From positions 124,001 to 188,000 of the forward strand of contig PYIU01000008.1 in NCBI GenBank assembly GCA_003415625.1: 64,000 nt of DNA, given 5' to 3'. Made by a program: the position numbers and the translations under genes. The stretch's first letter is position 1, and the number at the start of each line of letters is the position of its first letter. This stretch comes from Aquanectria penicillioides (lineage: Eukaryota; Ascomycota; Sordariomycetes; Hypocreales; Nectriaceae). This document shows positions 1-27,433 of this stretch, one piece after another. A model generated the notes under the pieces. That model saw only the letters and a list, made by a program, of their open reading frames with translations. It searched no databases and was not told the origin of the DNA.

Positions 1-356
1 GCGAGAGTGAGGTTGGTGACACCGCCAATGACACTGCTCAGGATGCCGACAGTTGGTGTAAGCGAGTGCCGGGCAAATGAAGAGGTGACGTAGGGGGTCA
101 AGATGCCCATAGTGCCCGACAACATGCCTTCAACAAAATAGATAAGCCAAACCATGATGTAGGCGCAGGCAAGGGCCTGCGTAGTCCATGCCAATGTCAC
201 TGCTTCAATATTCTGCACGCCGGGTTGGACCTCAGTGGCTGGGAGAGTATCGCCATCGCCCTCAGTGCTGGAAATGTCGTCTAAAATTTCCTCATTTGCT
301 AGAGCAGTGTATGAGCCGGATTGGACACCCAAGGGGGGATCATGTAGCGTCTTCAT
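1..356 (-). CDS. SIT-family (siderophore-iron type) MFS transporter, N-terminal fragment at window edge
   Basis: The reverse strand reads from an ATG at 356-354 without a stop to the left edge, giving about 118 residues. A hydrophilic head carries the motif GVQNIEAVT that precedes TM1 in fungal siderophore-iron transporters. TM1 follows (LACAYIMVWLIYFVEGM), then LTPYVTSSFARHSLTPTVGI and SSVIGGVTNLTLA, the family's conserved loop leading into TM2. The rest of the protein lies outside the window. It is related to the second SIT-type gene at 11122-12866, so two members of the family bracket the crmA-like gene. Family members are plasma-membrane proton symporters for ferric siderophores or export related chelators. 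The cargo here is unknown; a metal-isocyanide complex is an inference from context. The upstream region holds two copies of AACTTGCTCA. Confidence 0.8.
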   Translation of the reverse strand, partial: MKTLHDPPLGVQSGSYTALANEEILDDISSTEGDGDTLPATEVQPGVQNIEAVTLAWTTQALACAYIMVWLIYFVEGMLSGTMGILTPYVTSSFARHSLTPTVGILSSVIGGVTNLTL

Positions 357-871
357 GGGTTACTGCAACCCGTGTATAACGACAAACACTAAGGATAAGG
401 CAAAACACAGACGGTCAAGAGAAGAGGCGGAGAGAATTAGGTGAATGGCGCAAACCACAACATACCACATGCAAGGTGTTCTTTCATTTTGACTTTTGTA
501 GGCAGACAGAAGACGGGGAGATTAAATGCTCAAGAACTTGCTCACCCCACAGCCCCTGGTTCGCATATCCTATCAGCGCACGAAAAACTTGCTCATCCTC
601 ATTCTATGAGGCTTAGCGTTCATCGAAAAAAGCATTTTCTGACAAGAGAACACGAGTCTGGGACTACGAAATATTTGGATTGGGAAACTGTCAGAGCCTG
701 GTATGATCTAAATTGATGCTCCCCTGTCCTCGACTGCAATGCATAACAGGCACCAAAAAATTGTCAAAACAGTATAAATTTTAGTTTAATAGGCTTCACA
801 TTGAGGTGCTCACCAGCCGTGGAAACTATGCAAAACGTCGAAATCCAACATATGGCCTGCTATGGAAATGC
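357..871. promoter_or_regulatory. Intergenic: SIT-type transporter promoter and crmA-like 3' flank
   Basis: No gene is supported here. Both neighbours lie on the minus strand, so this stretch is the 3' flank of the crmA-like gene and the promoter of the edge transporter. It contains two copies of AACTTGCTCA (535-544 and 586-595). Each matches the yeast Mac1 copper element TTTGCTCA at seven of eight positions. Short ORFs across the region show no recognisable protein. Confidence 0.4.
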
Positions 872-3800
872 CTAGCAACTAGTATCTACAAGATCTGCAT
901 ATTTTGTAAACTCCTCGTCAGTCTGGAACATCTGCAACTCCTCAGGGTGCGTGCCCAAGACGAGTTCCACACCTCCATCGCTCTTCATGGGGAAGATGAC
1001 GAGGAACCGGAAACGGCCATTGCCACGCTCGAGCTGCGGCCGCATCGATTCGGGCGCCCCTCCGTTGGCAAAGAATTTGTCCCCAAAACAAATATCACCG
1101 GTCGGAAAAAGCATCATATTCGAGATCATGGCGTGCATATGTTCGAGGCCCATGTTGGCAGTGGAGAATCTGCTATGATCTGAAAGGGACTGCAATATTG
1201 TAAAGGCGTCGTGAACAAGGGGCGGAGTGATGCGTGCGGCCGACTGGCGGAGCACGTACGCAACATGCCCGATGCTAGTATCAGGGGAGCATAGTGTCTC
1301 TACAGGAATGCTTGACCGGTTCAAGATGAGAAGACTGCCCATATACGTTGATGGTAGTAAAGAGGAGAAATATGGCCGGCCGTCGGTAGGCAGCTCGAGA
1401 ATAGACTGATCATCCGGTCCGAAAGTCTCCTTGCGGACCTCCTTGGCCACACGATACCGTGCCCTGATAGCGGCGCGCCAGAAAAAAGCTTGCACAATGT
1501 CGCTGATCGAGGTAATGACACCCTTGGCTTCCGGATCGGCCATGACATCCTGTTTCATTTTCTGTAGCTTGTCGGGTGTGATCAGAAACAAAGTTGTCTT
1601 GAGACACCTCTCTGCACGAGGTAGTGGCCAGACAGAGTGCAAGGGGAAAATTGGTCGAGGAGGTAGAGCCGCTCCCCTTGCCGTCTTGTTGGGAAGTGGA
1701 GCATTGTGATCTGTCATTGTAGTCTGAATGCTCTGACTTTCGTCGTTTGAAGGAAAAAATGGCAAGAAGCCCCATGTACCAGGATCAATCTCGTGAAGGG
1801 GCCTCGCTTTGCCTTCTTGCTGGTGGATTATCTCGGGTAAGCTGTGGTTGAAGCTCTCGGGATCGTACCACTCGCAAGTTGCCGACTCTTCGCCCTGGAG
1901 ATATCTACAGTTCTCGGCCCAGGCCCTAAGAGCAACCATGACACCGAGACCATCGAGGCAGCAGTGATTCAGGTCAACGGCTAAAATGCAGCCACCTTTG
2001 ACAAAGTTGGCTTGCCCTACGAGGATGTCGGCAGGCATCGTAGGGAATGGGTCATCCCGTAGAACGAGGCTGTCCTTAAACGCCGACGGTGCGAAACCTG
2101 CATTTCGCAGTTCGTCAAACGGTGGTAGAACGCCGGTGAGGTCCTTGTAAACAAGGCGATTATAAACAGACTTCGCTTGAGAAAGAGGAGGAATAGTCAC
2201 ACATAGATCTCCCTTGGTATAGTTGATTTCCTGCTCCGAGCAGTTCATCATCTTGCCACCAAGAGCTGGGATCAGATCAAAGGTGCGATTGAGGCCCTCT
2301 TGTAGGTTGGCAAATACTTGCACAAATTCAATCCCTTCACGCAGGGGGAAGTAAAAGACCAAACCCATCCCGTGGTTTGGATTGACATAATCGAATGCGT
2401 TCAACCTAAATGACTGCCGAGCCTGGTGCTGAGCAATCATCTTCTTCAGCTTGAGCTCATCATTGTCGAGACACTTGTGATTTGAGTCACCTATCACAGA
2501 GCGTTTTTTCTCAGCCCCAAGATGTGAGATAACAGCAGAGAGATCGGCAATGGTAGGGTTAGCGTAGACGTGGCGAGGTGCAAAACGTTCGCCTAGCCCA
2601 GCAGCTACTCTGATCGTTTTAACGGCCGCAAAGACGCCAAGTGAGTCCAAACCGATATCGAATAGGTTTCTCTCCACAGTGGCTTCTTGTATTTCTGGCA
2701 GTGAAGAAGCAAATACTTCACGAATACCGGTATGAATTGACTCAATCGACGTTGTGTCAATTTTAAAAGAGCCAATAATATCGTCGCTTCGTGAACTGTA
2801 GAAACGTTCAATGTAATCAGCGTAGAGCGCCAGAGTCGCAGCTCTCTTGACAGTAGCTTTGTCAGTGCGTATAAAAGGCTTTTCAGGCTCTGAAAAGGTG
2901 ACAAAATCTCTGAGCAGTTGGTTCTTATGTCGAGACATGGAGTTGGCTTGCTTCACCGTTTCCCAAATGCTGTCGAGAAGCTCATCGGGCTTGCTCAACG
3001 GATCTTTCAGCTCGACAAGTAGGCCTGCTTGGGGCTTTCCAGTTCCAAATATCAAGCATCCATTGATTGCCGGGTGAGTAGTTACAAAGGCCTCTGTCTC
3101 GAGGGGTGAGATCTTATACCCGTTCGAGAGTACAACAAGATCATCACTTCGTCCCTTGAAGGCCCATAGGTTTGGCTTGGTGGGATGTCTCATATACAGG
3201 TCTTTGAAATTGACGGATTCCTTTTCTGGGAACGTGTGAAAAATGCCCTGGAATAAGGGCCAGTCTTTGTTTCGATGGACCCAGTGCTCGTAGGTATCCT
3301 CCTCGAGCTTCCGGAACTCGAAGCCGGAATATGAGTGGAAGCAGAACCAGAACCAATCCTCTCGACTTGTCACAAGGTTTCCAATGAATAGTCCTTCCGT
3401 TGTACCCGTCAGGTTTAGTACTCGTATCACTTCATTTACCTTGCCAGCGCTGACTGGGCTGACGGGACCGCCAGATGCACAGATGAATTTCGACGGCTTG
3501 AGCTTTGCCAACACTTCAGGCGTTTCGCCTAACTCGTCGACGAGGGACGGTACCATGCTCCAAATATCAATCTGGGCATGTTCCGCGAGACCTTCCACCA
3601 GATTGACATTTGGCAAAACACCCACTGGGCCTAAGACACAATGCAAGTTAAAGAGAGCCGGCATCAGAATATCCATGATGATACCAGCGCCCTGCGTCAT
3701 ATGGTTAGCCAACTTTTGTTTCATTCTTTCGTCGCCTCATGAATGAAATTATAAACATACGTGACTCATTGGGAATGATGAGTAGATTTTATCCCCGGCT

Positions 3801-6076
3801 TTCCAGTCAGATGTCCATGGTAATAGGCCACCGTCACCTTCGACAGATGGCAATAGTCGCACTGCGTCCATGGTGCCTATCAGTCCGTTGGACCAGGGAA
3901 TAGGCTTGGGTACTCCAGTAGTTCCAGATGTATGAAGGAAACAGAAAGGGTCATCCTTAGCTTCCTCGAACGTTTTGGAATACGGGAAAGGTTTCGTAGA
4001 TCCGGCATCTAGAAGCTCGTCGAGTAGAGGGAGTTGTAGAACATCCATGGACCGTTTTTGCAACATCTGGTTGACTAAAGGAACTGGAGATGCATCGCTG
4101 GCATTGACCCAGATATCACACTTGGTTGCTTCTAGCACTGCCAATGCGCCTTCAGTGTTATTCCTTGGCGAGAGAAACAAAGCCTATAGACATGAGGTTG
4201 GGGTGGTTAGTAGTGAATAAAATGTGGTTCAAGTACAGTTGCATAGGGCTTACCGCATAACCATTCTTTACACACGCATAAGTTAAAAGAATATGACGCA
4301 GGTCATCTTAAGAAGTCAGAGTCTAGGCATCGAGATGGGACGACAATCATTATATGTAAACTTACGAGGTCCAATGTAGCCCACGGCTTTGATCGAGTCG
4401 GGACTCCCAACCTGGTCGTGGAGCCACCAAGCCGTCTTGTCAACTGCCTTTGCGAATTCACTAGCAGAAATGCGTCTGAATCCCAGTGAAGGACCTGAAA
4501 AAGTGGCTAGAGAGAACACAATGCGGTCTGGCTCTGCGACAGCGAGGTTGTCCATGATCTGAGGAATAAGCCTGTTGCCATATGGTACCGGTCCAGACAC
4601 AGGAATTTCCATCGGTGGTGAATTTCTGACCAACTTATCTTCTACGATTGAATCCCGGATGCTCCAGTCCGATCTGGTCGGAGAGCCTGGCTGTGGCGTA
4701 GTAGCAGCGCTACCTTCCTCTATCACGCGGGGCGAGAAGATGAAGTCACTGGGCGAAACCATGGATGGTGAGGATATTTGAGGTGTAGAGGCCTCTCGTG
4801 GATATCCATCGGTGCTCATGGGTCCGTTCGTCTGGAAACATGGTGCCGATGTTTCGGTGATGCCTAGCACATCCATCTTGCCCAATATCTCCTTGAAGTA
4901 GCTTGGTCTGTCATCCGTGTACACAAGCTCCAGTCCATCTTGCTTAGCAAAATCGCCCATGGGGGCACTAATCCACTCTCCATCCGCCAGTTGGGCAACA
5001 CTGCAGTGCCATGGAGTCGTGAATCCGGTTGTGGTGTTGAGTAGACACAGCGATATTTTGTGCTGTCCAGTAGATTTGTGAATGGATAGCCGCAAGTGGT
5101 TGGGAAATGCGTGGTTAATCGCGCGAGCAAAAGCCTAGTTGAAGAGCATTAGTTGACAATAATTCTAGTACGCAAGTAGCTGGCAATTTGCTTACATCTC
5201 CTCGTATCAACATCTGTTTAGCGAGATATCTGCAATCTGCTGAATACTTGTCGGCAGTTCGATCCACCCCGAGAGGGAAAATATGCCGCAAATCCGACTC
5301 CAAGAACTTCACATATCCAAGGTAGGTCAGTTTAGTATCGGGCATGGTAGAAATCTCGTGCTCGATATCAAGATCGGCTCTGCCGTGCTTGTTGAGTAAC
5401 AGCCGACGGAAATTAGTACAGTTGGCGACGTATTCTATTTCACTCATCTTTTCAGACAAAGGGAAATCCAGAACGTCTCTTATTCTGCAGAAGCTAAGAT
5501 GATGACATTTCTCTTGAATAGCCACCTTGCGTAAGGCTTCACCGTAAGCCCAAGTGACTTGATCCGGTATAGATAACAAGTCTAACAGTGGAAATTGAGG
5601 CTATTGCGTCAGAAATGATCTTTTCTTGATCAGCCTAAAGTAGGCCGAAATTTCTTGCAAAACATACCGTTATACACGACGCCATCCGAGATTATGGTGA
5701 GACGAGCCCCTGGTGGATATACCTCCTGTATGCGTGCGCACATGGCATTGAGTCGATTGAGAGCCAACTCTTCGCCTTTGTCAGGGACACTGCCAAGCAC
5801 CTTGTAGACCTTGTTTGCCGACTTGAAGGGGAATCCAGGAAGACACGCCTCTACTGGGACCCCTGCGGCGACATACTGGGCAACGATGGAGAGGAAGTTA
5901 TCTCCTCCTTGGTCCGATCTGCCCTTTGGGTCATCAAACTTGTTCAGTGCATAGTCGAAAATGACATCCAGAACTTGTCGAGAGATATGCTTGACCTCCT
6001 CGCTGACTTCCACTTCATTGGACGAGGAGTGCTGCTCACCGTCAGTGCAGTCGCCAAGTGTTGGCTTCACCATCAT
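872..6076 (-). CDS. crmA: crmA-like hybrid: isocyanide synthase - adenylation - thiolation - acyltransferase
   Basis: Six exons (6076-5668, 5581-5196, 5134-4366, 4306-4254, 4183-3761, 3691-872) join in frame to 1619 residues with no frameshift. Residues about 30-345 are a DIT1/PvcA isocyanide synthase domain, with FPFKSANKVYKV, SDGVVYN and NTTTGFTTPWHCSVA. This family turns an amino-acid amine into an isonitrile. A Ser/Pro-rich linker follows. The adenylation domain (about 445-930) has LHTSGTTGVPKP near 625, NLTGTTEG near 773 and RSDDLVVLSNGYK near 862. The carrier domain has GLDSLG, with Ser near 1029 as the pantetheine site. The C-terminal 550 residues are a BAHD/trichothecene-acetyltransferase-like domain with HCCLD (HxxxD) near 1254. 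This order matches Aspergillus fumigatus CrmA, the copper-responsive isocyanide synthase-NRPS. The substrate is not readable here. The gene is divergent from the acetyltransferase at 7121. Confidence 0.9.
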
Positions 6077-7120
6077 GGAGACAATTTTTTATGTTGGATG
6101 GGATGGAGCTTCCAGGCAGTATTGAGGGCTTCTTGACGTGAATCCTAGCGAAGAGTTATATATTGCCCCAACACAGTGCTTGAGTTTTGGCATCCCGGCA
6201 ATCAGTCCAGCCAGCAAAATTACACACGCGTCAGCACGAGGACAGATGACAGTCCAAATTAATTTGGGAATCAACTAACAAAGGCAGCTAGGTAATAGCT
6301 AACACACCATACGACAAGGAACGAAAACAAACCAAGAGCACATCTCAGTTTCGTACCAAATACTTCATGCAGTGTCCAATCCACAGACTCCACTCCACTC
6401 CGGGGGACTCACCTGCAGGGAACTCCCACCGTAGTTGGCTGGTGGGTCGTGTTGGGATGGCAGCAGGAAAACCTCTCAAGTTCGTGGCTGCAGGGGGGGC
6501 GATAAAAATGCAGACTATGAGTCTACAGGAAAGTCTAAATCTTGGCAGCTGATACATCACGCTGACCATCCGACGCGGCTTTCGAGCAAATTTGAGGCAA
6601 ATATAAGCAGTTGGAATACGGCGTGCAGACCCCAGCCCATGTAAAGTGGAGGCCGATGCAGGTCGCGCCCATCCAGGCATTTTCAGATGAGACTCCAAGG
6701 CTAGCTTTATCGTATTGACCATGGCAACGGTCACCGTCTATGGGGCCAATTCCGAGACTAATCCCCGAGATGCCCTATCCACGCTACCCTGGAGTTCGCG
6801 CCAATATATCGATATTGCCTATGTGCCGTTTCGATGGACTAACGGCTGCAGGAATGAACCGGCTAGCCTAGTGAGCTGGCTCTCCTGGTGGCAAGTTATT
6901 ATTTCTTTAAATTGATACCGTCTCGATATTGTCTTTCCTAGTTTATACTTGGGGTGTCGATTTTGGTGTCTGCTTACGACTTCCACTCAATCATCTTGCC
7001 GCTCTTCCTGTTTTTGGGCACATTTCGCTTGCCCTAGCTTATGTTGCACGGCTCTTCATAGCCAACATGCTTCGCGTAAACAAAGTTTTGACCGCACAGC
7101 TAGAAAGTCGCGCCGGTGGA
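6077..7120. promoter_or_regulatory. Bidirectional promoter between crmA-like gene and acetyltransferase
   Basis: This 1.04 kb gap separates two divergently transcribed biosynthetic genes (starts at 6076 minus and 7121 plus). No coding exon is supported in it. It holds a 7/8 copper-element-like site, CGAGCAAA at 6583-6590 (TTTGCTCG on the minus strand), and AGAGCACA at 6335-6342 (TGTGCTCT on the minus strand). The second is one base from TGTGCTCA, the element reported for Aspergillus Mac1. A G7 run lies at about 6493. These matches are weak on their own. Confidence 0.45.
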
Positions 7121-8599
7121 ATGTCAGACATTTACAAACTCCAACAACTGAGGCCCCTAGGTACTTGAACACCTTCAAACCACGACCATCGACCTTTTCT
7201 AATTCAACATAGGAAATTTGGAGAAAGTTTCGGCTGCTTGCCACCACCTAGGGTTCTTCAACAATGTCGGACTCTCGGCTCAATACAAACTATCTTCTTC
7301 TCACACCCCAAGGACTAAGGATCTGCGTCGACTCATCTTCGCTGCTGTAGGAGATGTGGTCTGTAAGCATCGTACACTGTTCGCCATCCCTATCAATGAA
7401 GAGACACCAGATACGTATTTTGCCTCTCTTCCTTCAATTGATCTCAACACAAGTGTCATATTTGTCAAGCGGTCCCAGTCCTTGACCGGCGTCAGAGAAG
7501 GAGATGACACAGAACTTGACGCAATCCTCGAGGATCAGCACAATACCAGCTTCAAAACTTCATATGGTACCTTGCCATTCTGGCGCCTGATTATTCTACA
7601 AGACTCCGAGGAGAAAATGAGTTCACAGCCTGCTTTATCTACCATCACGCGATTGGTGACGGAGTATCTGGACTTGTTTTCCACAAAGAATTCCATCATG
7701 CCCTGGAGACTGCTTCTTCCGCTTCTTCTCCGACGTTCAATAATCTGGAGACCGTCCAACCAGATGAGAATTCTTCAGTTCTCCCACCCGTTGAGGAATT
7801 GCACACTCTACCAATCAATCCACATTCCTCTGGCCCTGCTCCCACAAGCCTCAAAGAATGGACGGGCAGCTCCATCTTTGCCCCCTGCAAGTCACGCTGG
7901 TCGTCTCTTTGCTTTGCACCCAAGCTCTCGCAAGCCTTCTTTCGGGAGTGCCGAGATAGGGACCTATCAGTAACGTCTGCGCTGTCGTCTATAATCGCCA
8001 CAGTCTTGTTTAGTAAACTCCCACCGACCGAAGAGGCTCTGACATGCATTATTCCTGTCAGCCTACGTCCATGGCTCAATCTTCCTCGCGAGGTGGCCGA
8101 GGGCGCAATTGGAACCTACTTTGATGCCACAAAGGTGTGCTTCACGCGGCCGAACGAGGACCCCGATAATGCCAAGACGATAGATGAATGGACAGGAGCT
8201 CGGAAAGTCTCAGGTGTGATCAATGACTATATCGGCAATGTTTCGCCAACTGGGGAGCCCTATACGGCAATTGCTGTCTTTAAAAGTATTCCAGATGTCT
8301 CTACAATCTTCAACTCTATGCTTGGGAAGCCTCGCGATGCAGCGTTCGAAGTGACAAATGTTGGAAGATTCTCAACATATGAAAATTCCGAGGCCATTGA
8401 ACCCTGTCTGTGGGATGTGGGAAAAGTGCAACTTAGCCGGAGCTCTGTTGTGACTGGGGCCGCCGTTACCGTTAGTGTTGCGACTGGCGGCGATAGATCA
8501 ATGACGGTTGGTCTTAGCTGGCAGCAGGGTGTTGTGGAGGATGGAATTATACAAGGCATCAAAGAAGAGCTTCGAAACTATTTTAGGAAGTATGAGTGA
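7121..8599 (+). CDS. Alcohol acetyltransferase-type (AATase) enzyme, one-base frameshift
   Basis: The start is a short first exon, 7121-7160, ending LRPLG. A GT-AG intron (7161-7212) follows, then LEKVSAACHHLGFFNN, the usual N-terminus of the fungal alcohol O-acetyltransferase (AATase) family. The catalytic HxxxD motif is HHAIGD, encoded near 7640-7660. It lies one frame away from the upstream coding frame. The shift maps to the A4 run at 7614-7617: one extra A would give an uninterrupted 475-residue protein. Downstream, CIIPVSLRPWL and the C-terminal half are intact. It probably acyl- or acetylates an alcohol or amine on the isocyanide product, cytosolically (an inference from the divergent crmA-like neighbour). 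Sequencing error is the likeliest cause of the shift; real inactivation cannot be excluded. Confidence 0.8.
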
Positions 8600-9122
8600 T
8601 AAGTAATTCCTGGTATGATGATATCAAGCGGGGAATACATGCAAACGAGCATGACCGATATTCCATCAGATAGATACAAAGACTGGGAGGTGAAAATTAT
8701 TTGGCAATCCACTTGGAATATATGATAACTCACTTAAAGAAATAGTTTTCTGCTTACCCACTCTGCGAGTGGAATGTGCTCCATAGTCTACAGTCTAGAA
8801 TGGAGAACGGAGAGAATTTAAATGGGTGGGTCGGCATTTCTAAATCAATTCCACCAAAGTTAAGGTCGTACTAATCTCCTACGCTCGCATGTGCTAACAA
8901 AATGATCCGTATCCAAAGACATGTGACCTACGACTCGATGGGCCCGACTCTACCCGAGTCCAATTCCTAAGACACACGCAATATAATTTCCCGTAACCCA
9001 CATGATCCCTCACGCTGTTCCTGTTGGCGGAGAATTGCTCAAAATCCATTCGTTGGGAAGAAAAGCTAAATAAGAATACCAGAAAGTCAATTTCATTCCA
9101 CCTCGTTACTCTCGGTTTCAAA
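8600..9122. other. Intergenic: acetyltransferase 3' flank and hydrolase promoter
   Basis: No gene is seen. The hydrolase promoter carries ATTGCTCA at 9034-9041, 82 bp upstream of its ATG, which is a 7/8 match to the Mac1 copper element. No other structure was noticed. Confidence 0.35.
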
Positions 9123-10181
9123 ATGGCCAAAGAGCCGTCTGCCTATCCTTTTCCGTACTCGCAGGCCACAATGCTCGACGCCAGGATCAAGATACCACGC
9201 CCCGCCATTGATCCTACGCTGGCACCAATTCTCGATTCATATTTGCTGCCCGAAGAGCTGGATCTCAACTTTATGCGCGGTCTTTCGGCTGGTGGCGACA
9301 CAGCAGCGTTTGTTTACACTGCTGCTAACATTATCCAGAGTGCGCCGCACCTAAAGCACACGGAATATACCATCACTGGGCTGGAAGGTAACAGCATCGT
9401 CCTGTCTGTCTTTGCGCCAGAGAATCCAAAGGCCTCTACTTTGCCAGCCTTATACTACATGCATGGTGGCGGCATGGTTGCTGGTGATCGATTCTCTGCC
9501 CTCACTGAATTGTTGGACCTCGTCAAAGGCGTTCAGTGTGTTATTGTGTCTGTCGAATATCGACTTTCACCGGAGACTCGCGCCCCTGGACCAGCAGAGG
9601 ATTGCTATACCGGGCTTTTGTGGGTGTCGAAGAACGCGAGCACCTTAGGAATCGACCCGGCTGGCATTGTTGTGTGTGGCGTGTCTGGAGGTGCCGCTCT
9701 AGCAGCAGTAATTTGCCTCATGGCCCGAGACAGGACATCCCCCATAGTTCCTATCAAGGCGCAGATGTTGATGTCCCCCATGCTCGACGATCGATGCGGA
9801 AGGATCTCAGATCAGCAGTTTGAATATGGTAGCCCATGGTGCGGTATCTCGAATCGCACAGCATGGGCTCATGTCATTGGGGAGAACCGGGGATCCGACA
9901 AGGTTACACCATATCAGTCACCCTCTCGATCGGAAGATCTGTCAAATCTCCCCCAGACATACATTGATGCCGCAGAATGCGAGGTATTTCGAGATGCTGC
10001 AGTTTTTTACGCTATGGACATGTGGCGTTGCGGGTCGACATGCGAGTTGCATGTCTGGCCGGGTGCCTTTCACATGTTTGATGGAATGGATAACCCGTGT
10101 GTGCCTCTTATCCATGCTGCGATTGAAGCAAAGCAGACTTGGCTTGAGAGAATCATGCAGTCTCCGAATGGAGAAAGCTAG
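9123..10181 (+). CDS. Alpha/beta hydrolase fold-3 (HSL-type) esterase/lipase-like
   Basis: An intronless ORF of 352 residues runs from ATG 9123. The frame is open further upstream only to a TTG, so this ATG is preferred. Motifs of the hormone-sensitive-lipase family are present in order: the oxyanion motif HGGGM, the nucleophile elbow GVSGG (GxSxG with Gly for the usual Ala), an acid region DAAECEVFRDAA, and the C-terminal catalytic His in HMFDG. Family members hydrolyse small esters or amides in the cytosol. It sits co-directional between the acetyltransferase and the second SIT transporter, so it may deacylate the isocyanide product or a metal complex, as some esterases release iron from siderophores. 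That role is inferred. Codon use and base composition look like the neighbours. Confidence 0.8.
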   Translation: MAKEPSAYPFPYSQATMLDARIKIPRPAIDPTLAPILDSYLLPEELDLNFMRGLSAGGDTAAFVYTAANIIQSAPHLKHTEYTITGLEGNSIVLSVFAPENPKASTLPALYYMHGGGMVAGDRFSALTELLDLVKGVQCVIVSVEYRLSPETRAPGPAEDCYTGLLWVSKNASTLGIDPAGIVVCGVSGGAALAAVICLMARDRTSPIVPIKAQMLMSPMLDDRCGRISDQQFEYGSPWCGISNRTAWAHVIGENRGSDKVTPYQSPSRSEDLSNLPQTYIDAAECEVFRDAAVFYAMDMWRCGSTCELHVWPGAFHMFDGMDNPCVPLIHAAIEAKQTWLERIMQSPNGES

Positions 10182-11121
10182 TTGTTGTGCCGTCATAATG
10201 TTGGGTTCTGACTTTAGAATTAGAAGCAATTGTGCTAGCTAGCTAGGATTTGGATATCTCGTCACCTCCATCATACTCATGAGCCTATGGGTTGCATCGC
10301 CAGCACCGCAGGATGAACCAGTCCCTCGGGCTCCGTTTGCATAGAGTACTCATTGTACTGCGTGATGACATTGACTAGGAACTTGATATTTGCGCCATTG
10401 TTCCGTTCCACCCTTCTCGCTCAGCGGTCAAATGGAGCCGACGGTGTCGTCTGTGGTCCAAGAAAATAAGAGACATGGGAGACGGAGCTTGTCGTCCTGA
10501 ACTGGACTAACGTGATTCAGCCTGAGACGGCCCGTTGCGCGAGTTAAATCGAGCTAATTATCATTGGTAGGTTGGTGCAGGACATGTTCGAGCGCAAGGA
10601 ACGTGGGAGCAGGGGTTCGATCATAGTTATGTGCTATGCGCAGATGGCCGGGCCTCAAGGGGAAAAAAAGCACTTGTCCGAAAATTGATATCGAGAGCAT
10701 CTTGCGCGAAGTTGGTCTTTGCGATGATTCTGCGCCAGATATTCTCATTATGAGTGCCCAACCTTGGGCATAACTTGTCATGAGTGGTCTGTTTTACACC
10801 CCACGAGGTGACGCGACATCATGGATGGAAACCGCAGAGACAAAACATTATCCGCAAACCAACACATTACCAGGATCGTTGCACCACCGCCACCATTCTC
10901 CTATTATTGCTTCTGTCCCAGGTCAGGTTTGCATGCCCCACCACCAACAATCTTTGTCACAGGGCTAAACGCCGATTTTATTTGCTCAATCTGCAGTTCA
11001 AGCGTTCCCAGCGGCAATATATAATAAATCACCAACCATGGCATTGGAATCACCTATTTGTTGTCCGTAGACCTTGACCATCATTCCTTTACTTCCCCCT
11101 TGAACTTTCAACTCCTACGAC
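10182..11121. promoter_or_regulatory. Intergenic: promoter of second SIT-type transporter
   Basis: This 0.94 kb stretch has no supported gene; overlapping short ORFs at 10780-11077 lack any recognisable domain. It contains the exact copper element TTTGCTCA (10981-10988) 134 bp before the transporter ATG. Pyrimidine-rich sequence around 11085-11105 is typical of a fungal 5' UTR. Confidence 0.45.
10981..10988 (+). promoter_or_regulatory. Exact match to copper-starvation element TTTGC(T/G)CA
   Basis: TTTGCTCA lies 134 bp upstream of the SIT-type transporter start. It equals the binding element known for the yeast copper-deficiency activator Mac1. A single octamer is expected by chance roughly once per 16 kb on either strand, so functional support must come from expression data. 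Confidence 0.35.
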
Positions 11122-14783: not shown

Positions 14784-14791
14784 TGCGCAAA
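14784..14791 (-). promoter_or_regulatory. TTTGCGCA copper-element match upstream of isocyanide synthase
   Basis: TGCGCAAA on the plus strand, about 680 bp before the isocyanide synthase ATG, matches the Mac1 consensus TTTGC(T/G)CA on the minus strand. The distance is plausible for a fungal promoter; the match alone is weak. Confidence 0.25.
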
Positions 14792-16755: not shown

Positions 16756-17476
16756 AGATGTAATGATACGTCACTAACATTTCAAGGAAATAATACGGTC
16801 TCTTAAAGAACGTGCCTGTAGCATTGAGGGGTTCGTAGTCGATCACCCTTTCTGTCCAATCGGAATTTCATTTCATTTCTCTCTGTGAAACAAATCTTTC
16901 GACCAATTTTAGTCAGAATTGTCCAGCATCATTAGCCTAGATGGATGGAACCTTATTCTACTTCCGTTGCCTTACTTTGCAATCTCATCAATTCTACCTG
17001 GCCTTCGACAACAAACCGGAGCGTTGGGTGTACTTTGAGACCCATTTTACTGCATTAGACCTACACCTCAGAAACTAGCAAGTTCTCTAAAAGCTCTAGC
17101 CTGATGTAAGGCTAGTCCCGGGGGTGAAATAACTTGCGGACGGGGTGAAGGAGGGGCCTGATGCCAATACTTGCGCACCTTTTCAGCCCGCGCCTTTCTC
17201 GGATCGGACTTTTTTTTCAGTCTCTCGTACAACTCATCCTTGTATCTCTCACTTTACGCTCTTCAAAAACGTGTCTACTCCCATTCTGTTATTTTTGCTC
17301 ACCGCCATCACTTGAAGCTTATTTCCATTACAGCAGTTGCACAATCGTCACTCTGAAGTGACCTGATCTCAACTACATAACGTCGTTGCTGTCTCTTGTC
17401 TAGGCTATTCCCAAAGCCACACCGGGGGACGACAAAGTACGCCGACAAAAGCGCCTTGAAGGGAAAAAGTTGTACA
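16756..17476. promoter_or_regulatory. Intergenic: promoter of PDR ABC transporter
   Basis: No gene is seen. The 3' part (17160-17476) is pyrimidine-rich and contains the exact octamer TTTGCTCA at 17294-17301, 176 bp before the ABC transporter ATG. The 5' part is the 3' UTR and flank of the isocyanide synthase. Confidence 0.4.
17294..17301 (+). promoter_or_regulatory. Exact copper-starvation element TTTGCTCA before ABC transporter
   Basis: TTTGCTCA lies inside a T-rich stretch 176 bp upstream of the PDR transporter start. It has the same sequence as the site 134 bp before the SIT-type transporter. The T-rich context raises the chance of an accidental match. Confidence 0.3.
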
Positions 17477-20400
17477 ATGTCAGCCACTGGTCAGCGGAAG
17501 GTTGACACCGACAATGCTCGTGATACCAACTGCAATCCCAAGATGACACTCACGGAGATGTGTAAAGCGGTCGAGACAGTGTCGATTACCCAAGAATTGA
17601 ACAACACCCACGCATTCAATGCCCAAAACACATCTACGGCTGAAGTTAGTGCTAAGTCACCTGTCAAAGCTTCAGGTGACGACGATGAACACGATTCCGA
17701 GGCGCAACGGCGTAACTCCATAGTGCAGGCCCTCGCGGCATCCCAAGCACGCCGTCCCGGATCTTGGCCTGAAGAAAATTTAATCGCTACGGAGACAGAC
17801 TCTGCCCTTAATCCTCATTCCACCAAATTCAGTGCCACTGAGTGGGCGAAGTCCATGTTCGAGATGGTATCTCGAGATAGCACTTCACTCCGGTCCACTG
17901 GAGTTTGCTTCCAGAATCTCTGTGTCCGCGGCTTTGGTACCGGCACCGACTATCAAAAGGATGTTGGAAACTTCTGGCTATCACTCTTTGACATAGCACG
18001 TAGCTTCCTGAGCAGAAATCGCCAGTACGTTGATATTCTGCACCAATGTGATGGTTTGATACGGCAGGGCGAAATGCTCGCCGTATTAGGACCACCAGGT
18101 TCTGGTTGCTCTACGTTTCTCAAAACCATCGCCGGCGAGACGAGGGGTATTCATGTCGGAGATGGCTCCTACTTCAACTATCAAGGTGAGTAAGATTTGA
18201 AGTATTTCTCGAGATGTGGCTATGCGCAGCTGAAGGGGAATAATAGTTCCAACTACATGGGAACCAAACTGAACTTGAAACATAGGCCAAACGGACAAAG
18301 AAATGCACTCTCAGCACCGCGGGGAAGTCATTTACACAGCAGAACTTGATGTGCATTTTCCAATGCTAACTGTTGGCGACACTCTCACATTTGCTGCTCG
18401 TGCTCGCCTACCACAAATACTACCGATGGGTCTGAGTCGGACTGATTTCGCCAACCACCTTCGAGATGTTGTGATGGGTATATTCGGAATCTCTCATACT
18501 GTTGATACATTTGTTGGAAACGAATTCGTACGTGGCATTTCCGGGGGCGAGCGCAAACGTGTTTCTATTTGTGAGGCCGCTCTTTCCGGTGCCCCGTTAC
18601 AGTGCTGGGATAACTCAACTCGCGGCCTCGACTCCGCCAACGCAATTGACTTTTGCAAAGCCTTGCGCCTTCAGACGAAGATATTCAATAGCACAACTTG
18701 TGTCTCTCTCTATCAGTCTCCCCAAAGCGCCTATGATCTTTTTGATAAGGTTCTTATTTTATATGAAGGTCGCCAGATCTTCTTTGGCTCTACTGCTATC
18801 GCCAAGCAATACTTTATCAATCTAGGGTTTGCATGTCCAATTCGCCAAACTACACCCGACTTCATTACATCTATGACTGCGCCAGGAGAGCGTATTATCC
18901 GCCCTGGGTTCGAAGCCAAGGCTCCTCGAACCCCCGATGAGTTCGTTGAAGCATGGAAGAAAAGTTCTTACTACAAGTCCCTGGCAGACGAGATTACTCA
19001 GTATAAAATCGACCATCCTATAGATGGCCCTGATGCTGAGATATTTCGTGCGTCGAAGCAAGCTCAACAGTCCAGTGGACAACGAAAGAAGTCTCCTTAT
19101 ATCCTGACATATTTGGAACAAATTCAGCTATGTCTATGGCGCGGATGGAAACGATTGACAGGTGACCCCAGCATAACGATTGGTGCTCTAGTTGGAAATT
19201 TCATCATGGCTCTTATCGTTGGCAGTGTTTTCTACAACATGAAACCAACAACATCAAGCTTTTTCCAACGTGGAGCATTGCTTTTTTTTGCATGTCTGTT
19301 AAATGCATATGCAAGTGCTCTTGAGGTATGGTTTTTTCATGCCTCATTTCTATTGACACTATGGACTAACATGGTTAGATTTTAACACTCTATGCGCAGC
19401 GGCCCATTGTCGAAAAGCATAGCCGTTATGCTTTGTACCATCCTTCAGCCGAGGCAGTGGCTTCTATGATTTGCGATATGCCGTATAAAATTCTAAACTC
19501 GATTGTTTTCAACCTTACGCTCTATTTTATGACCAACCTACGGCGAGAGCCAGGGGCATTCTTTTTCTTTCTGCTTATTTCCTTCTCAACTGTTATGGTC
19601 ATGTCTATGATTTTCCGCACGATTGCTTCGGCATCCCGCACTTTAGTTCAAGCTTTGGTGCCTGCTGGTCTTCTGATGCTTGACTTGATCATTTTTTCTG
19701 GCTTTGTGGTTCCAAAACGTTATATTCTCAGTTGGTGCCAATGGCTCCATTACCTCGATCCATTGTCATATGCCTTTGAATCACTTGTGGCTAACGAGTT
19801 CCATGGCCGCAAGTTCGACTGCGATGAGTACGTTCCGAGCCATGATCTCTCCCAGTATGACGACGTGGATGGGGAAAATCATGTGTGCAGAGCTATTGGT
19901 TCCAAGCCGGGGCAGAACTATGTACTTGGCGAAGATTATATTCAGTCCAATTTCGAATACTCTTGGGACCATCGGTGGCGGAATTTCGGCATCATTGTCA
20001 TGTTTACCGTTATTCTCCTGGGCTTCTATATGATTACTGCTGAGATGGTCTCGGCGAAGAAGTCTAGAGGTGAGGTTCTCCTTTATCGACGAGGTTATAA
20101 GCCTGTTGCGGCTAAGCTTGCCGAAAACCGGCGGGGGATCCCGAAGCTGCTGTAACCAGCATCAGCCCAATCGTTACGTCGAGGCTGAGCAGCGACGATA
20201 GCAAAGCAGGGAAGCTTCAGCGACAAAGATCTATATTTCATTGGCGTGATGTTTGCTATGACATCAAAATAAAAAAGGAATCAAGACGAATTTTGGATCG
20301 TGTCGATGGTTGGGTCAAACCAGGCACTCTAACAGCCTTAATGGGAGTATCCGGGGCCGGAAAGACAAGTCTTCTGGATTGCTTAGCCAATCGCACTGCG

Positions 20401-22170
20401 ATAGGTGTGATTACTGGCAAGATGCTTGTTGACGGTAAGCCTCGAGATTTATCGTTCCAAAGAAAAACAGGCTATGTACAGCAACAAGACCTGCACTTAC
20501 ATACGTCAACCGTTAGAGAGGCTTTGAACTTCAGCGCTGTCCTTCGCCAATCTATATATACGTCCCGAAGAGAAAAGCTTGAATATGTTGAAGAAGTTAT
20601 CAAGCTGCTAGAAATGGAAGAATACGCCGACGCCGTTGTCGGTGTACCAGGGGAGGGGCTTAACCTTGAGCAACGCAAGCGTTTAACAATTGCTATTGAG
20701 CTTGTTGCGAAGCCACCTCTTTTACTTTTCGTAGATGAGCCGACTTCGGGACTTGACTCACAAACATCTTGGGCCATTCTAGACCTGCTGGAGAAACTAG
20801 CAAAGGCCGGCCAAGCTGTTCTTTGTACTATTCACCAGCCTTCTGCCATGCTCTTCCGGCGCTTCGACCGCCTGCTTTTACTGGCTGATGGAGGGAAGAC
20901 TGTTTACTTCGGCGACATTGGTGAGGAGTCTAAGATTATGATGAGTTATTTCGAACGCAATGGTGGGAAGCCATGTCCGTCTGATGCAAACCCGGCCGAA
21001 TGGATGTTGGACATAATTGGGGCTGCCCCAGGGTCAGCAACTGAAATGGACTGGTTCCGTGTATGGCGTGAAAGTCCTGAATACAGTACAGTTCAAAGTG
21101 AACTGGATAGAATGGAAGCCAAAGCGAACGATTCTTCACAGACCATAAACGATAGCCTTGGCGGCTATCAAGAATTTGCAGCTCCATTCAGGGTCCAGCT
21201 TTACGAAAATCTCTACCGTGTCTTTCAGCAATATTGGCGCACTCCAAGGTATATTTATGCAAAAGCTGCTCTTTGCACACTTATATCCCTCTTTATTGGT
21301 TTCGTCTTCTTCCAAGCCCCCAATAGCATTCAAGGCCTTCAGAGCCAAATGTTCTCGCTTTTTAGCCTCTTCACAATCTTTGGCCAAATTATCCAACAGT
21401 CTATACCGCAGTTTGTCATCCAACGGTCACTATACGAAGCAAGAGAGAGGCCTTCTAAAGTGTACTCATGGAAAGTTTTCATGCTTTCGCAAATTCTTGT
21501 TGAACTCCCCTGGAACGGGCTTATGGCTTGTTTAATGTACTTTTGCTGGTATTATCCCACTGGCCTCTACCACAATGCTGAACCAACCGGACAGGTCGCC
21601 GAGCGGGGAGCATTAGTCTTTCTATTTCTGCTCATGTTTATGATTTTTGCTGGAACTTACTCAGTGTTTATGGTAGCCGGTTTCGAAACAGCGGAAGCCG
21701 GGAGCAACCTTGCCGACTTGCTATCGACCCTCTGCTTAATATTTTGTGGCATTCTTGCTACACCTCACAACCTCCCCGGCTTCTGGATTTTCATGTATCG
21801 CATATCGCCGTTTACTTATCTAGTAAGTGGGATTTTATCAGCCGCTGTGGCGAATACGAACGTTTCTTGTGCCGAAAACGAATTCCTATCTCTCAAGCCC
21901 ATCAATGGGTCTACTTGCGGCGAATACCTAGCTACACACATAAAGGAAGTCGGGGGGTACCTTTTGGATGCTAATACGAATTTTGAATGCATTTTCTGTC
22001 CTATTTCTGAGACTAACAAGTATCTCGAGTCCGTTAGCACAAACTACGCGGATCGCTGGAGAAATTTTGGCATCATGTGGCTCTATGTCTTGTTCAACAT
22101 CGGGGCGTCATTGATGGTTTATTGGCTGGCACGTGTGCCAAAGTCAACTGAGAAGCAGAAGAAAGAGTAG
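17477..22170 (+). CDS. Full-size PDR-type (ABC-G) multidrug ABC transporter, one-base frameshift
   Basis: Exons 17477-18185, 18286-19325 and 19379-22170 encode about 1513 residues, the usual PDR length, in the order NBD1-TMD1-NBD2-TMD2. NBD1 has the degenerate fungal Walker [10 protein letters not shown], signature [11 protein letters not shown] and Walker B-like [16 protein letters not shown]2 has [23 protein letters not shown] and [14 protein letters not shown]. Both introns have GT-AG ends and keep the frame. The frame breaks once, in the linker before NBD2, at the G5 run 20133-20137. One more G reads R-R-G-D-P-E-A-A and continues through [12 protein letters not shown]. The protein should sit in the plasma membrane and export hydrophobic compounds, plausibly the isocyanide product as self-protection (inferred from position 0.7 kb behind the isocyanide synthase). 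ATG 17477 is the first in frame. Confidence 0.92.
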
Positions 22171-23187: not shown

Positions 23188-24987
23188 ATGGCTGTCCAGA
23201 ACGAGGCAATGACTGCTGCCGACACAGATTCTCCCGAGGCGTCAACCTTGAACGTCCCGTATGTGAAGAATACTGGCGAAAACGATGCAGAAAAAGCGGA
23301 GGCGACCGCTCAGACTATGACTGATGATCATTACCCGCATGGCTTGAAACTGGTAATCCTGGCGGGAGCTTCCATGTCTGCCGTTTTCCTGATTGCATTG
23401 GATCAGGTGAGTAAGTATCGGCACTAGGTTCATAAATATGACTTCTCACAGAAATCCAGACAATCGTCGGAACGGCAATTCCCAAAATCACTGACCAATT
23501 TCACGGCCTCGACGACGTTTCATGGTACGCTGCTGCCTACTTCATGACTTTTGGCGCTGCCCAGACTGCGGCTGGCAAGATATACAAATTCTTCAATCTC
23601 AAGTGGAGCTTTCTCTTGTCCATGTTCATCTTCGAAGTCGGCAGCTTGATCTGTGGAGTCGCACCCAATTCGAAGACGTTGATAGTCGGACGGGCTATTG
23701 CTGGAGTCGGTGCTGCTGGCTTGTCAGTAGGAGGCACTAGCATTGTCTCCTTTACTGTCCCGCCAGCAAAGCGACCGATGATGATGGGCATCATCGGAAT
23801 GACATATGCTGTTGCTGCTGTCCTAGGCCCACTCCTCGGTGGTGCATTTACGGATCATGTATCCTGGAGATGGTGCTTTTATATTAATCTGCCCATTGGT
23901 GGTGTCGCCGCTCTCGCCGTCTTCTTCTTTTTCCATCTTCCAGCCGCCGCCACACCTCCTCAGGTGACCTTGGCAAAGAAGTTGCTACATATTGATCCAG
24001 TGGGCATTACTTTGGTCATGGGAGGCATAACCTGTTTCATTCTCGCCCTGCAGTATGGAGGAAGTACCCACCCCTGGAATAGTAGCATAGTCATCGGGCT
24101 TTTAGTCGGGTTTGGACTCCTTGTGGCTGCCCTAGTGGCCTGGGAAGTCTGGCTAGGCGACTATTCCATGATGATGCCCAGGCTGTACAAGCAACGCTCA
24201 CTCGCTGCCACCGCGCCTTACCAATTCTTCTTTATGGGCAGCTATGTGGCGTTGCTGTATTACCTTCCCATCTACTTCCAGAGCATTCTCGGCGCGAGCC
24301 CTATCAAATCTGGTGTCAACAACCTGCCTCTGGTGCTTGCGGCTGCTCCCTTTGCCATTGCTGGCGGAGCTGTCGTTACCAAAACTGGTCGCGCGCAACA
24401 GGTCATGTTTGTGGGCTCAATGCTTACGACCGTTGCAATTGGTCTCATCTACACGCTTGACATTGGCACCCCGACTGCTAAGTGGGTAGGATATCAATTC
24501 TTTGTCGGAGCCGTCATGTCCTTTGCTATCATGCACGGATTGACTGTTGCACAAGCTAGCGTGGGTTCCGAAGATCTTGCCGCTGTCACGGCTAATCTAC
24601 TGTGTATGTGCCCTTCTTCTGCTTCTTCCTCTTTTCCGAGTTGTCCAGAACTCTAATCAAGTGTATTTTCTAGTCTTTCAAACTATTGGCGGTGCATTCA
24701 GCACTTCGGCAGGCCAGTCAGCATTCGTCAACAGACTGCTCGCCACTCTTCCCAAAACAGCTCCAGAGGTTGACCCAGGTTTAGTGCTCGTGACAGGCGC
24801 ATCCGAACTGCACAAGGTGTTCCCGCCAAACTTACTACCCGGGGTGCTGGAGGCGTACATGGCGGGCATCAAAGCGGCGTTCGCGGTTGCGGTTGCATTC
24901 TCCGGCGCAGCATTCGTATGCACCTTGGCCATCCCCAAGAGAAAACTTCCCAGTCATGAAAGTAAGGAATCCATGGTGATGGCTTGA
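23188..24987 (+). CDS. DHA2-type (14-TM) MFS drug exporter
   Basis: Exons 23188-23406, 23460-24603 and 24674-24987 join in frame to 558 residues. After a hydrophilic, acidic N-terminus the sequence has ALDQ/TIVGTAIP (the first intron splits this DHA2 signature), then WYAAAYFMTFGA, GRAIAGVGAAGL (motif A/B region), GPLLGGAFTDHVSWRW (motif C) and FYINLPIGGVA. The second intron lies before FFQTIGGAFS, a standard DHA2 position. Members export small molecules across the plasma membrane by proton antiport and are common self-resistance genes in secondary-metabolite clusters. It is co-directional with the ABC transporter and the Zn2Cys6 regulator. Which compound it carries cannot be read from sequence. 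ATG 23188 is preferred over an in-frame ATG 114 nt upstream because the upstream part has no conserved look. Confidence 0.9.
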
Positions 24988-25386
24988 TTCACATTCATGG
25001 TGTGGACGTGGAGTTCGGTAGATGATGTGGGCCGCGTCCGTGCGTGGCCTTGACCTGTCGTACGAGTTATCCCTGGTGCCAATCTTCTTCTAAGATTACC
25101 AAAATAGAAGACAAAAGAATTACCATGCACCCAGTCTCTACCTATTCTACTCCGATTTTCCTCGAGGCTTGTCTTGTTGCCTTTTAAATTAGGCAGCAAC
25201 CGGACTCTCCGAGAGATTCCAATTGTGCCCCACATTAATCTGCTCCGCACATTCCACTCCGCCGGAATCTCCTCCGTTCCATCTCCGTTCCACCTCCGTT
25301 CTTAAAAGAAAAGCACACACGCCGACCAAGTCCTGAGGATATCCGGACTTTCCACCGTAACTTGCATTACAAATCCTCTCAGTACT
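24988..25386. promoter_or_regulatory. Intergenic: promoter of Zn2Cys6 regulator
   Basis: A 399-base gap. It contains a repetitive CTCCGTTC-rich stretch (about 25268-25302: CTCCGTTCCATCTCCGTTC and the like) but no gene. CGG/CCG elements, the usual half-sites of Zn2Cys6 proteins, occur near 25260-25350, so autoregulation is possible. Confidence 0.35.
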
Positions 25387-27433
25387 ATGGAGAGGTCCAG
25401 GCCGGGCCTCGGCCACTCCAGCACATATGGCCAAGCTTGCATGCAATGCTACAAGGCAAAGTGCCGGTGCGTGCCCAATCCTAGCGGCAATGGTTGTGAA
25501 AGGTCAGTTTGTCTCGCCAAAGCCTTGAGCTGATAGATTGACTGGAAAATCTCAGATGTGTGCGGCTCAGGAAGGAATGCAGGCCATCGGAGGCGGCTCG
25601 CCGACGCAATGCTCAAAAAGCTGACGACTCGGATACACGGATTGTCCAATTGGAGGGTAAAATAGAAACCCTGCTCTCTGCAATGCAATCCATCGCAAGC
25701 GCCTCCGGATCTTCGGTAGACCTGGCACAGCTCCTCAATAAGGACAATGCTCCATCATACTCATCTAGCTCTGCACGCATCGCAACATATTCCACCAACA
25801 GCTCAGGGTTTGGAGATGTGCTGACGCCGTCCACGAATCCATCGCCGAAGGCGCCGGGGGGCACGGATCCGTTCCCTCTAGCTCTCTCTGATCTATCGCC
25901 AAGTGATGCGGAAGAGCGCTTTGGTTTTTTTCGCTCCCGAATGCTTCCATGCTTTCCATTTATGCATATCCCTCCGGACATGGCGATCGTACAGTTGCGC
26001 CAAGATAAGCCGTTCTTATCCCAGGCTATCCTCACTGTTACCGTATTCTCGACCCAGGAACGACTGGTGCTCATCGAGGATCTAAAGAGCACCTTGTTCA
26101 CTGCCACTCTGACCAATCTCGAGTCAAACATTGACCTGTTACTCGGACTGCTAACATATCTCTCATGGAGTATCGACGCCTTTCTTGGCAGGGCCGACCT
26201 CGTGTCTCGTCTCATGATGCTCGCCATGTCTTTAGTGTATGACTTGAAGCTATTTAAGCCACCGCGACTAGATGTAGAGGTTATGATGTCAATGACTCAA
26301 GGTCGGCTTTTGAGCAATGATCAAAGTTCCAACGATGAAACCATCCATCATTTCTTGGAAAAACAGCGAGCGCTCCTCGCGTGTTTCGTGTTGAGCTCCA
26401 AGTACGACTTGAAATCTACCTGTTCGTCGCTTCGATCTATAGAACCTGACTGACGTGTATGTGCGTAGTCTTTCATCTCACTTTGGTCGCCAAGATGCGC
26501 TACGGTGGACGCCACAAATGGAGGAGGGACTCCGCGTTATTGAAATGAACAAATCCTGTCCAACAGATGAATCTTTCGCATATCAAGTCCGCCTGCATCT
26601 TCTAAAACAAAGAGCGGCGTGCATCCGAGAACAACACGAGGTGGACCGTGCTCGCACAGGTTCAGCAACTGTCTCACTTCCGGGCTTGATGTATCTCAAA
26701 ACACTGCGAGGGCAGCTGCATGATCTTAGATCTGCAATGCCTCAAAATCTCCACCAGCGAGGTGAGTTCTTCAAGTATTGTGAGGGATGCTAGAATAGGC
26801 TTGCTAAATATTGTAGACATCCTGATGACGTATACACAATACGTCGAACTATACATAAACCATCTGGCTTACTCGGTAAGCTGGGACGGCCCGCTTCTTG
26901 ACTTATCATCACAAAGCAGTTCCGGTGGTACCTTACCTGGATTCGACCGACTCGATTGTTTATGGCGGTCCGTCGAAAGTATCAAGTTGTGGCTGGATAA
27001 TTTCTACAGGATTCAACCTTCAGAACTTGTCGGCCTACCCTTTCACTTTTGGTCACAGATGATTCTATGCATCACAATCTTAAAATATCTGTCGACACTT
27101 GATGATCCAGGTTGGGATTCTCAAGCAGTTCGGAACACAGTCAACTTGATTACGACACTGGGCTACATGAATGATAAACTAGACCTGAGCTGTAAAGAAC
27201 TGGGTCTCCAGTGTGAAAACAACCTTTTCAAGCTCTTATCGAAGCTTTTATCTAAATGCCTAGCGTGGGCCAATGCTTGGTTCAACGTGACCTCACAGGT
27301 GCATTCGGCAGAAGCTACTACAGCCAGTCACAGCAACTACATTCCAGATCTAGACCAGATGGCTTGGATGCAGTCGATGGACTTGGAGAGCGACCAGTGG
27401 TTAGATAACTTACTCGGTGAACCGAAATTTTGA
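25387..27433 (+). CDS. Zn2Cys6 transcription factor, putative pathway regulator
   Basis: Four exons (25387-25502, 25556-26401, 26469-26761, 26817-27433) join in frame to 623 residues. The DNA-binding domain at residues about 18-45 reads ACMQCYKAKCRC then CERCVRLRKECRPS. It is a compact variant of the binuclear cluster with six or more cysteines and an intron inside it at the usual place. A basic stretch and a short coiled coil (IVQLEGKIETLLSAM) follow as the dimerisation element. The remaining 500 residues are the poorly conserved middle region of this subfamily, with FPFMHIPPD, WSIDAFLGR and LRWTPQMEE. It is the last co-directional gene of the locus, next to the DHA2 exporter, so it is the best candidate for pathway-specific control. 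This is inferred; it could serve only the DHA2 gene. Confidence 0.88.

Follow-up and report, generated by a model that had tools for sequence, protein, structure and literature searches.

Gene content of the locus

We examined a 64,000-nucleotide stretch of the genome of the fungus Aquanectria penicillioides (the window; C12:124001-188000 in a 53.8 Mb genome of 13 contigs), and found two isocyanide synthase (ICS) units in its first 27.4 kb. One is part of a crmA-type hybrid with a nonribosomal peptide synthetase (NRPS), and the other is free-standing. A preliminary description, made from the sequence alone, had placed two such synthases within 10 kb, one in a crmA-like hybrid and one free. Our gene models reproduced both pairs of coordinates (872-6076 and 15471-16755) with a spacing of 9.4 kb. 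Because C12 starts with telomere repeats, the locus (about C12:122.6-151.4 kb) is subtelomeric, lying about 122-151 kb from the telomere. The genes are as follows:

1..356, minus strand: siderophore iron transporter (SIT)-like transporter of the major facilitator superfamily (MFS), crmC-like by resemblance; 5' end only (gene model)
C12:122612-124000, minus strand: part of this first SIT-like gene (the outside SIT) that lies outside the window (gene model; whole gene L009:5612-7356)
872..6076, minus strand: crmA-type ICS-NRPS hybrid, 1619 aa (gene model; Pfam)
7067..8599, plus strand: AATase-type acyltransferase, crmB-like by domain (gene model; Pfam PF07247)
9123..10181, plus strand: alpha/beta hydrolase (single open reading frame; Pfam Abhydrolase_3, E 3.2e-46)
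11122..12866, plus strand: second SIT-like MFS transporter, SIT2 (gene model; Pfam MFS)
15471..16755, plus strand: free-standing ICS, 389 aa, three exons (gene model; Pfam DIT1_PvcA)
17477..22170, plus strand: ATP-binding cassette (ABC) exporter of the pleiotropic drug resistance (PDR) type (gene model; Pfam PDR ABC)
23188..24987, plus strand: DHA2-like MFS exporter, 558 aa (gene model; Pfam MFS_1/TRI12)
25387..27433, plus strand: probable Zn2Cys6 regulator, 600 aa (gene model; motif by eye)

These genes form two halves, with 2.6 kb between them that holds no modelled gene. The left half comprises crmA, the AATase gene, the hydrolase gene and the two SIT-like transporters, and carries motifs of the type recognized by the copper regulator Mac1. 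The right half lies on one strand, the free ICS being followed by the PDR gene, the DHA2-like MFS gene and the probable Zn2Cys6 regulator. For the neighbouring genes, the preliminary description held in part. Pfam supported the acyltransferase (weakly, 25 bits against a cut-off of 22), the hydrolase, and the MFS and PDR genes. One SIT-like gene has only 356 bases in the window, and the Zn_clus score of the probable regulator (8.9 bits) is under the cut-off of 21, its Zn2Cys6 motif being recognized by eye. The labels SIT and DHA2 were given by resemblance where Pfam gives MFS_1/TRI12 (for the outside SIT, MFS_1 on the first 293 residues), and the names crmB-like and crmC-like rest on domains and resemblance, not on comparison with crmB or crmC sequences.

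The crmA model combines DIT1_PvcA, AMP-binding, PP-binding and TRI-like_N/Transferase domains, and the free ICS has DIT1_PvcA alone (E 2.5e-100). No cytochrome P450 was among the Pfam matches of the genes modelled between 1 and 27.4 kb, so the dit-type pairing of dit1 with the adjacent P450 gene dit2 is absent there.

The left half resembles a crm cluster

The closest relatives of CrmA, among 120 listed of 138 matches, align over its full length with identity up to 76%. We placed its ICS domain in a hand-picked 74-row tree (44 of 120 listed free-ICS matches, 24 of the 120 listed crmA matches, and 3 fusions), and found it in a 15-row clade with Aspergillus fumigatus CrmA (support 99). This clade sits amid free-standing ICS lineages, with nesting branches supported at 89-91. 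Outside it lie four crm-like rows from other species.

The crm cluster of F. oxysporum contains crmA, crmB (alcohol-O-acetyltransferase), crmC (siderophore iron transporter), a hydrolase, a transferase-family gene and Mac1 sites (PMC11563359). Because its composition resembles this cluster, the left half can, as far as its domains go, be read as an ordinary crm cluster. An ICS-NRPS crmA is shared with the crm clusters of A. fumigatus (crmA-D) and F. oxysporum (FOXG_09769-09773); an AATase, a SIT-like transporter, a hydrolase and, in some of the promoters, Mac1-type sites appear to be shared as well, and the composition is close to that of the F. oxysporum cluster (PMC11563359; PMC9381783). Hydrolases are also described in crm clusters of Fusarium oxysporum (PMC11563359) and Dothideomycetes (PMC9381783). 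Our locus differs from these clusters by an extra, free-standing ICS, by a PDR pump and another SIT-like gene, and by a fast-evolving ICS domain in CrmA; no copper transporter (crmD) was found among its modelled genes.

Under copper limitation, A. fumigatus CrmA makes valine isocyanide, with N-formylvaline, fumivalines and acylated sugar alcohols as end products, and related mannitol esters in other fungi are crmA-dependent (PMC9381783). In a genome search that scored 17 of 17 candidates, no adenylation protein of the crm type was seen apart from CrmA (the others at most 35% identical), and CrmA is thus the sole such partner seen.

Rapid change in the ICS domain of CrmA

Two regions of CrmA were delimited for the comparison of evolutionary rates:

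4895..6004 (introns included), minus strand: CrmA ICS domain, residues 25-345 (branch-length and conservation analyses)
2447-2734, minus strand: CrmA carrier region, residues 1000-1095 (branch-length windows)

Terminal branches were compared among 81 CrmA proteins (only rows P0121-P0208 of 1500-2300 aa) on a fixed topology, which was derived from the columns of the ICS, adenylation and transferase domains. The branch of our CrmA ranked first of 81 in the ICS domain, 11 in the adenylation domain and 22 in the transferase domain. Its ratio of ICS to C-terminal branch was 2.75, compared with a median of 0.97, a 95th percentile of 1.54 and a maximum of 1.95 in the 71 other scorable rows; in 9 of the 81 rows the C-terminal branch was too short for a ratio. 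The control ratio of transferase to adenylation was 0.66 (rank 54 of 69). Identity of the ICS domain to the ten nearest rows was 0.096 below that of the C-terminal part, and other rows average 0.022 above (standard deviation 0.043). Relative to the median branch share, the three thirds of the ICS domain reached 4.5-, 5.5- and 5.3-fold values (ranks 3, 2 and 1 of 81), and seven of nine windows outside it were at 1.0-1.9 times the median.

At 13 crm-diagnostic positions, the CrmA ICS has six residues of the crm type, three of the free type and four others, compared with at least 8 of 11-13 kept by every one of 20 other CrmA rows. Two rows listed as free ICSs, P0076 and P0054, lie in the CrmA clade and were left out of the free set for this comparison. 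The outlying crm rows P0215, P0220 and P0222 were left out of the crm set for diagnostic and invariant positions alike, and P0223 was dropped from the conservation analyses onward for its absurd branch in the ICS tree. Three of the altered CrmA-invariant positions are polar (T134, N216 and D330), with T134V falling in the conserved ISDG-x-x-YN stretch. On the active site of isonitrile synthases, a search of open-licence papers listed only work on the unrelated ScoE route.

Since the ICS domain of this CrmA changed most among the 81 compared, the free ICS likely took over part of the CrmA synthase work. This rate signal is the main reason for thinking that the neighbouring free ICS affects CrmA. 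Judged from its residues and rates together, the CrmA ICS domain probably retains activity, though with constraint that is weaker or of another kind.

Copper-regulator motifs in the promoters

We scanned the promoters with the F. oxysporum Mac1 consensus DHNTGCTCANNN (PMC11563359), and took the chance level from dinucleotide shuffles (n=400). The consensus scan gave the following sites:

527..595, plus strand: three Mac1-type TGCTCA sites, outside-SIT promoter
9035..9041, plus strand: Mac1-type site, 88 bases upstream of the hydrolase gene
10981..10988, plus strand: exact TTTGCTCA Mac1 site, about 140 bases upstream of SIT2
15065..15070, plus strand: weak Mac1-type TGCTCA site, about 400 bases upstream of the free ICS
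17294..17301, plus strand: exact TTTGCTCA Mac1 site, 183 bases upstream of the PDR pump gene

The crm half has five sites within 300 bp of its five starts, in three promoters (three for the outside SIT, one for the hydrolase and one for SIT2). Its counts were matched by 0, 3, 3 and 24 of 400 shuffles for windows of 300, 500, 600 and 1000 bp; for the four genes of the ICS half, these numbers were 139, 60, 62 and 22. The free ICS and PDR genes alone have four sites within 1 kb, a count matched by 2 of 400 shuffles. Across the 53.8 Mb genome, TTTGCTCA is present 2136 times, or about once in every 25 kb, and the same word read backwards 1181 times. The motifs suggest that the ICS half may be under copper control.

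The free-standing ICS and related arrangements

The free ICS shows no departure at 117 positions conserved in 70 reference rows. Its relatives (120 listed of 729 matches) come from many ascomycetes and are nearly all annotated as ICS only; relatives in the PDB are 9dhm, 9dh4 and 3e59. In the 74-row tree it groups with the free ICSs of Dactylonectria estremocensis and Ilyonectria (support 95), and this grouping, together with only 64% identity to the CrmA ICS domain, rules out a recent duplication of that domain as its source. Gene conversion between the two units was not supported either: third codon positions contain no high-identity tract, and the excess change is even over the domain. Given the 64% identity and the lack of such a tract, the two ICS units are old relatives and not a recent copy. 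The free ICS is no partner of the xan type. It falls among free-standing lineages close to the CrmA ICS domain, and its Pfam scan gave only DIT1_PvcA, not the ICS-TauD backbone of the xan type.

Co-location in other species was compared by eye in two listings, of 120 of the 729 free-ICS matches and 120 of the 138 crmA matches. Clonostachys rosea and Trichoderma viride appear in both listings from different records, and were not counted. In Xylographa opegraphella, a free ICS and an ICS-less CrmA-like protein have consecutive tags (MMC26_002878/002879) on contigs of equal size. In Fusarium culmorum, such a pair has tags two apart (HYE67_000265/000263), again on equal-size contigs. The Xylographa free ICS is near ours in the tree. 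Supply of ICS activity in trans thus has a precedent in gene order.

A Fusarium type has been described as gene cluster family (GCF) 8, and CrmA has been proposed to have originated when a free ICS became fused to an adjacent NRPS-like gene (PMC10153163). In GCF 8, a monodomain ICS lies beside an ICS-less NRPS-like gene, and our locus shares the free ICS beside a crm-type adenylation/transferase protein. Unlike in GCF 8, the partner CrmA keeps its own ICS domain here, and there is no terpene synthase among the modelled genes. Two ICS genes per cluster are also shared with cluster 4G of A. fumigatus, containing icsA and icsB (PMC5974471), and with GCF 1 (PMC10153163). GCF 1 has two monodomain ICSs from one ancestral duplication (PMC10153163), whereas our locus has one ICS-NRPS hybrid and its units group apart. 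No report of our arrangement, in which the two ICS genes lie together with transporters, was found in open-licence papers. Since two-ICS clusters as such are already known, what is new is the pairing of a fused with a free synthase, together with the rate signal.

The PDR gene and its links to ICS genes

In a hand-picked 40-row tree (including 32 of 120 listed PDR matches), the PDR gene falls in a seven-row paralog clade (support 100), apart from a widespread-type copy that is kept on C8 and groups with Neonectria, Ilyonectria and Dactylonectria. A tree of all 120 listed PDR matches also placed it in a seven-row set with support 100. Contigs of the relatives in this clade were compared by eye. 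The PDR and free ICS genes are on contigs of equal size in Thozetella and Niveomyces, and of unequal size in D. estremocensis and F. decemcellulare. For the remaining two, Cylindrodendrum and Clonostachys byssicola, the list of 120 matches includes no free ICS. Ilyonectria sp. 0026 has both on equal-size contigs, but its PDR is of the widespread type and the contig measures 2.6 Mb.

An ABC N-terminal domain is present in 8 of the 120 listed free-ICS matches (P0017, P0025, P0026, P0033, P0035, P0036, P0060 and P0066), and a full PDR is fused to the ICS in three proteins listed among the crmA matches (P0238, P0239 and P0240). Proteins in which an ICS is fused to or runs into a PDR ABC part were seen in Hyaloscypha, Phialophora, Aulographum, several lichens and Fusarium oxysporum, where joining by the gene models is possible. 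This ICS-PDR type is not among the three ICS types of PMC5974471 and PMC10153163, in whose main texts "ABC transporter" and "ABC" do not occur.

A free-type ICS linked to a PDR is thus shared between our locus and the fusions of Hyaloscypha, Phialophora and Aulographum, as well as the pairs of Thozetella and Niveomyces, the latter by equal contig size. In contrast to the fusions, the two are separate genes 0.7 kb apart here, and our PDR shares 52-54% identity with the fused ABC parts. Descent of our PDR from the ABC part of such fusions was not supported, since the latter make up a separate clade and Phialophora P0239 is about as similar to two further PDR genes of the genome as to ours (57-58% identity).

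A proposed role of the free ICS, and alternatives

We propose that the locus is a crm-type cluster, of the kind that yields isonitriles in other fungi starved of copper, with a free ICS and a PDR pump beside it, and predict that the free ICS makes an isocyano acid for the loading and acyl-transfer part of CrmA, sharing or replacing the work of the CrmA ICS (probability about 0.42). The preliminary description had considered one mixed product or two parallel isonitriles; a free ICS serving CrmA may be a third option. A Mac1-like activator would induce the SIT, hydrolase and PDR genes during copper starvation, and thereby the pathway. Both ICS units would convert an amino acid, likely valine as in other CrmAs, to an isocyanide. 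The adenylation, carrier and transferase domains of CrmA, with the AATase and the hydrolase, would then esterify the isocyano acid to mannitol or a similar polyol. Export of the product would fall to the PDR and MFS pumps, and the SIT-like proteins would move the metabolite or its metal complex. Redundancy of the two synthases likely relaxed the constraint on the built-in ICS of CrmA.

Several observations weigh against this proposal. The rate test was made after a long branch had been seen in the ICS tree, and the length of terminal branches varies with the sampling of relatives. Two other parts of CrmA, the carrier region and the first 130 residues of the adenylation domain, are also fast, at 3.1 times the median each. 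The excess at conserved positions is modest: the CrmA ICS differs at 5 of the 117 conserved positions, where the 70 reference rows have a median of 2 and a maximum of 12, and at 6 of the 114 that are CrmA-invariant, where 20 other CrmA rows have a median of 2 and a maximum of 5. It keeps 58 polar positions conserved across the ICS set, and is therefore probably still active; a dead domain is unsupported, although T134, N216 and D330 are altered. The promoters of crmA and the AATase gene have no consensus Mac1 site within 600 bp, one of eight genes outside the locus has such a site as well, and the single site within 300 bp in the four promoters of the ICS half is a count that 139 of 400 shuffles match. 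The F. culmorum free ICS belongs to another free-standing lineage. Among the listed matches, Paramyrothecium foliicola, Clathrospora elynae and Nemania serpens hold both genes on contigs of unequal size, so the pair of free ICS and crmA is no conserved unit in the species compared. The preliminary description had named widespread occurrence of each half alone, with no co-location in relatives, as a finding that would refute a joint locus, and this was seen in part, each half being common alone and three species having both on unequal-size contigs.

Finally, single-base frame breaks in four of nine locus genes (outside SIT, AATase, SIT2 and PDR) may mean errors or decay. The outside SIT has one break, in the part beyond the window, SIT2 has one near 11448, and the PDR gene has one near 20125-20146; these three were called against relatives or each other. 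In the AATase gene, an apparent break between about 7567 and 7628 was judged by eye from the reading frames. The gene models bridge the breaks. Among 10 other PDR loci of the genome, one (the widespread type on C8, L016) has two single-base breaks, one is ambiguous and eight have none, and no such breaks against relatives were found in crmA and the free ICS. The frame breaks are likely sequencing errors, and may instead reflect decay.

A stronger form of the proposed role is doubtful: that the N-terminal ICS of CrmA is being replaced in trans by the free ICS, making the locus a present-day intermediate that links the fused crmA with split loci as in Xylographa and Fusarium. The origin and break-up of fused biosynthetic enzymes have mostly been read from distant comparisons, and here both states stand side by side in one genome. 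A domain-specific rate change would be a measurable sign that the free enzyme bears on the fused one. Whether a free ICS can feed the loading and transfer part of CrmA also bears on whether the split lichen and Fusarium loci make the same copper-linked isonitriles.

It is possible, at odds somewhat against, that two independent units, the crm cluster and a free ICS and PDR pair with its own exporter and regulator, merely abut in the subtelomere and make two parallel isonitriles. Clusters in subtelomeres often shuffle, and our locus is at such a distance from the telomere. The free ICS and crmA are common apart, the three species with both genes have them on different contigs, and the 2.6 kb between the halves holds no modelled gene. 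The right half also has its own probable regulator, and its copper motifs are weak. However, independent units would predict neither the domain-specific acceleration of the CrmA ICS nor the exact TTTGCTCA before the PDR gene.

We consider it improbable that the CrmA ICS shifted its substrate, so that two different isocyano acids are joined into one mixed polyol ester. Retention of only 6 of 13 crm-type diagnostic residues and the T134V change would fit such a shift, and crm clusters are known for mannitol esters with several acyl kinds (PMC9381783). The change is even over the ICS domain, however, which looks more like relaxation than a change of the pocket. Least probable is a decaying crm cluster, in which the acyltransferase and transporter genes would be pseudogenes of recent origin and the ICS domain would drift along, as the breaks in four of nine genes might suggest, since crmA and the free ICS read through without such breaks, the adenylation and transferase parts of CrmA evolve at ordinary rates, and the two like breaks in the widespread-type PDR gene on C8 point to sequencing errors.

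Other observations

In the branch-length windows, the carrier region of CrmA ranked 4 of 81 in branch share. A profile search with PF05141 (DIT1_PvcA) gave matches at at least three loci in the genome (at least 8 exon matches; 7 of 7 first-look candidates scored). Besides the two ICS genes described above, the search matched an ICS-TauD gene on C6. This third ICS encodes an ICS-TauD-like protein of 660 aa (C6:5439096-5441262; L010:4597-6763), the TauD label being given by eye. A flavin adenine dinucleotide (FAD) monooxygenase-like gene, also labelled by eye, lies 1.4 kb from it.

The flanks of the locus are gene-poor on both sides (27.5-34 kb of the window and L009:3000-5600), and possible mobile-element relics were seen by eye in the left flank. 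Further along the window, a long gene on the minus strand (43186-48170) is a candidate for a fungal NOD-like receptor (NLR)-like protein, with a nucleoside phosphorylase-like domain, a NACHT-like region and WD40 repeats recognized by eye.

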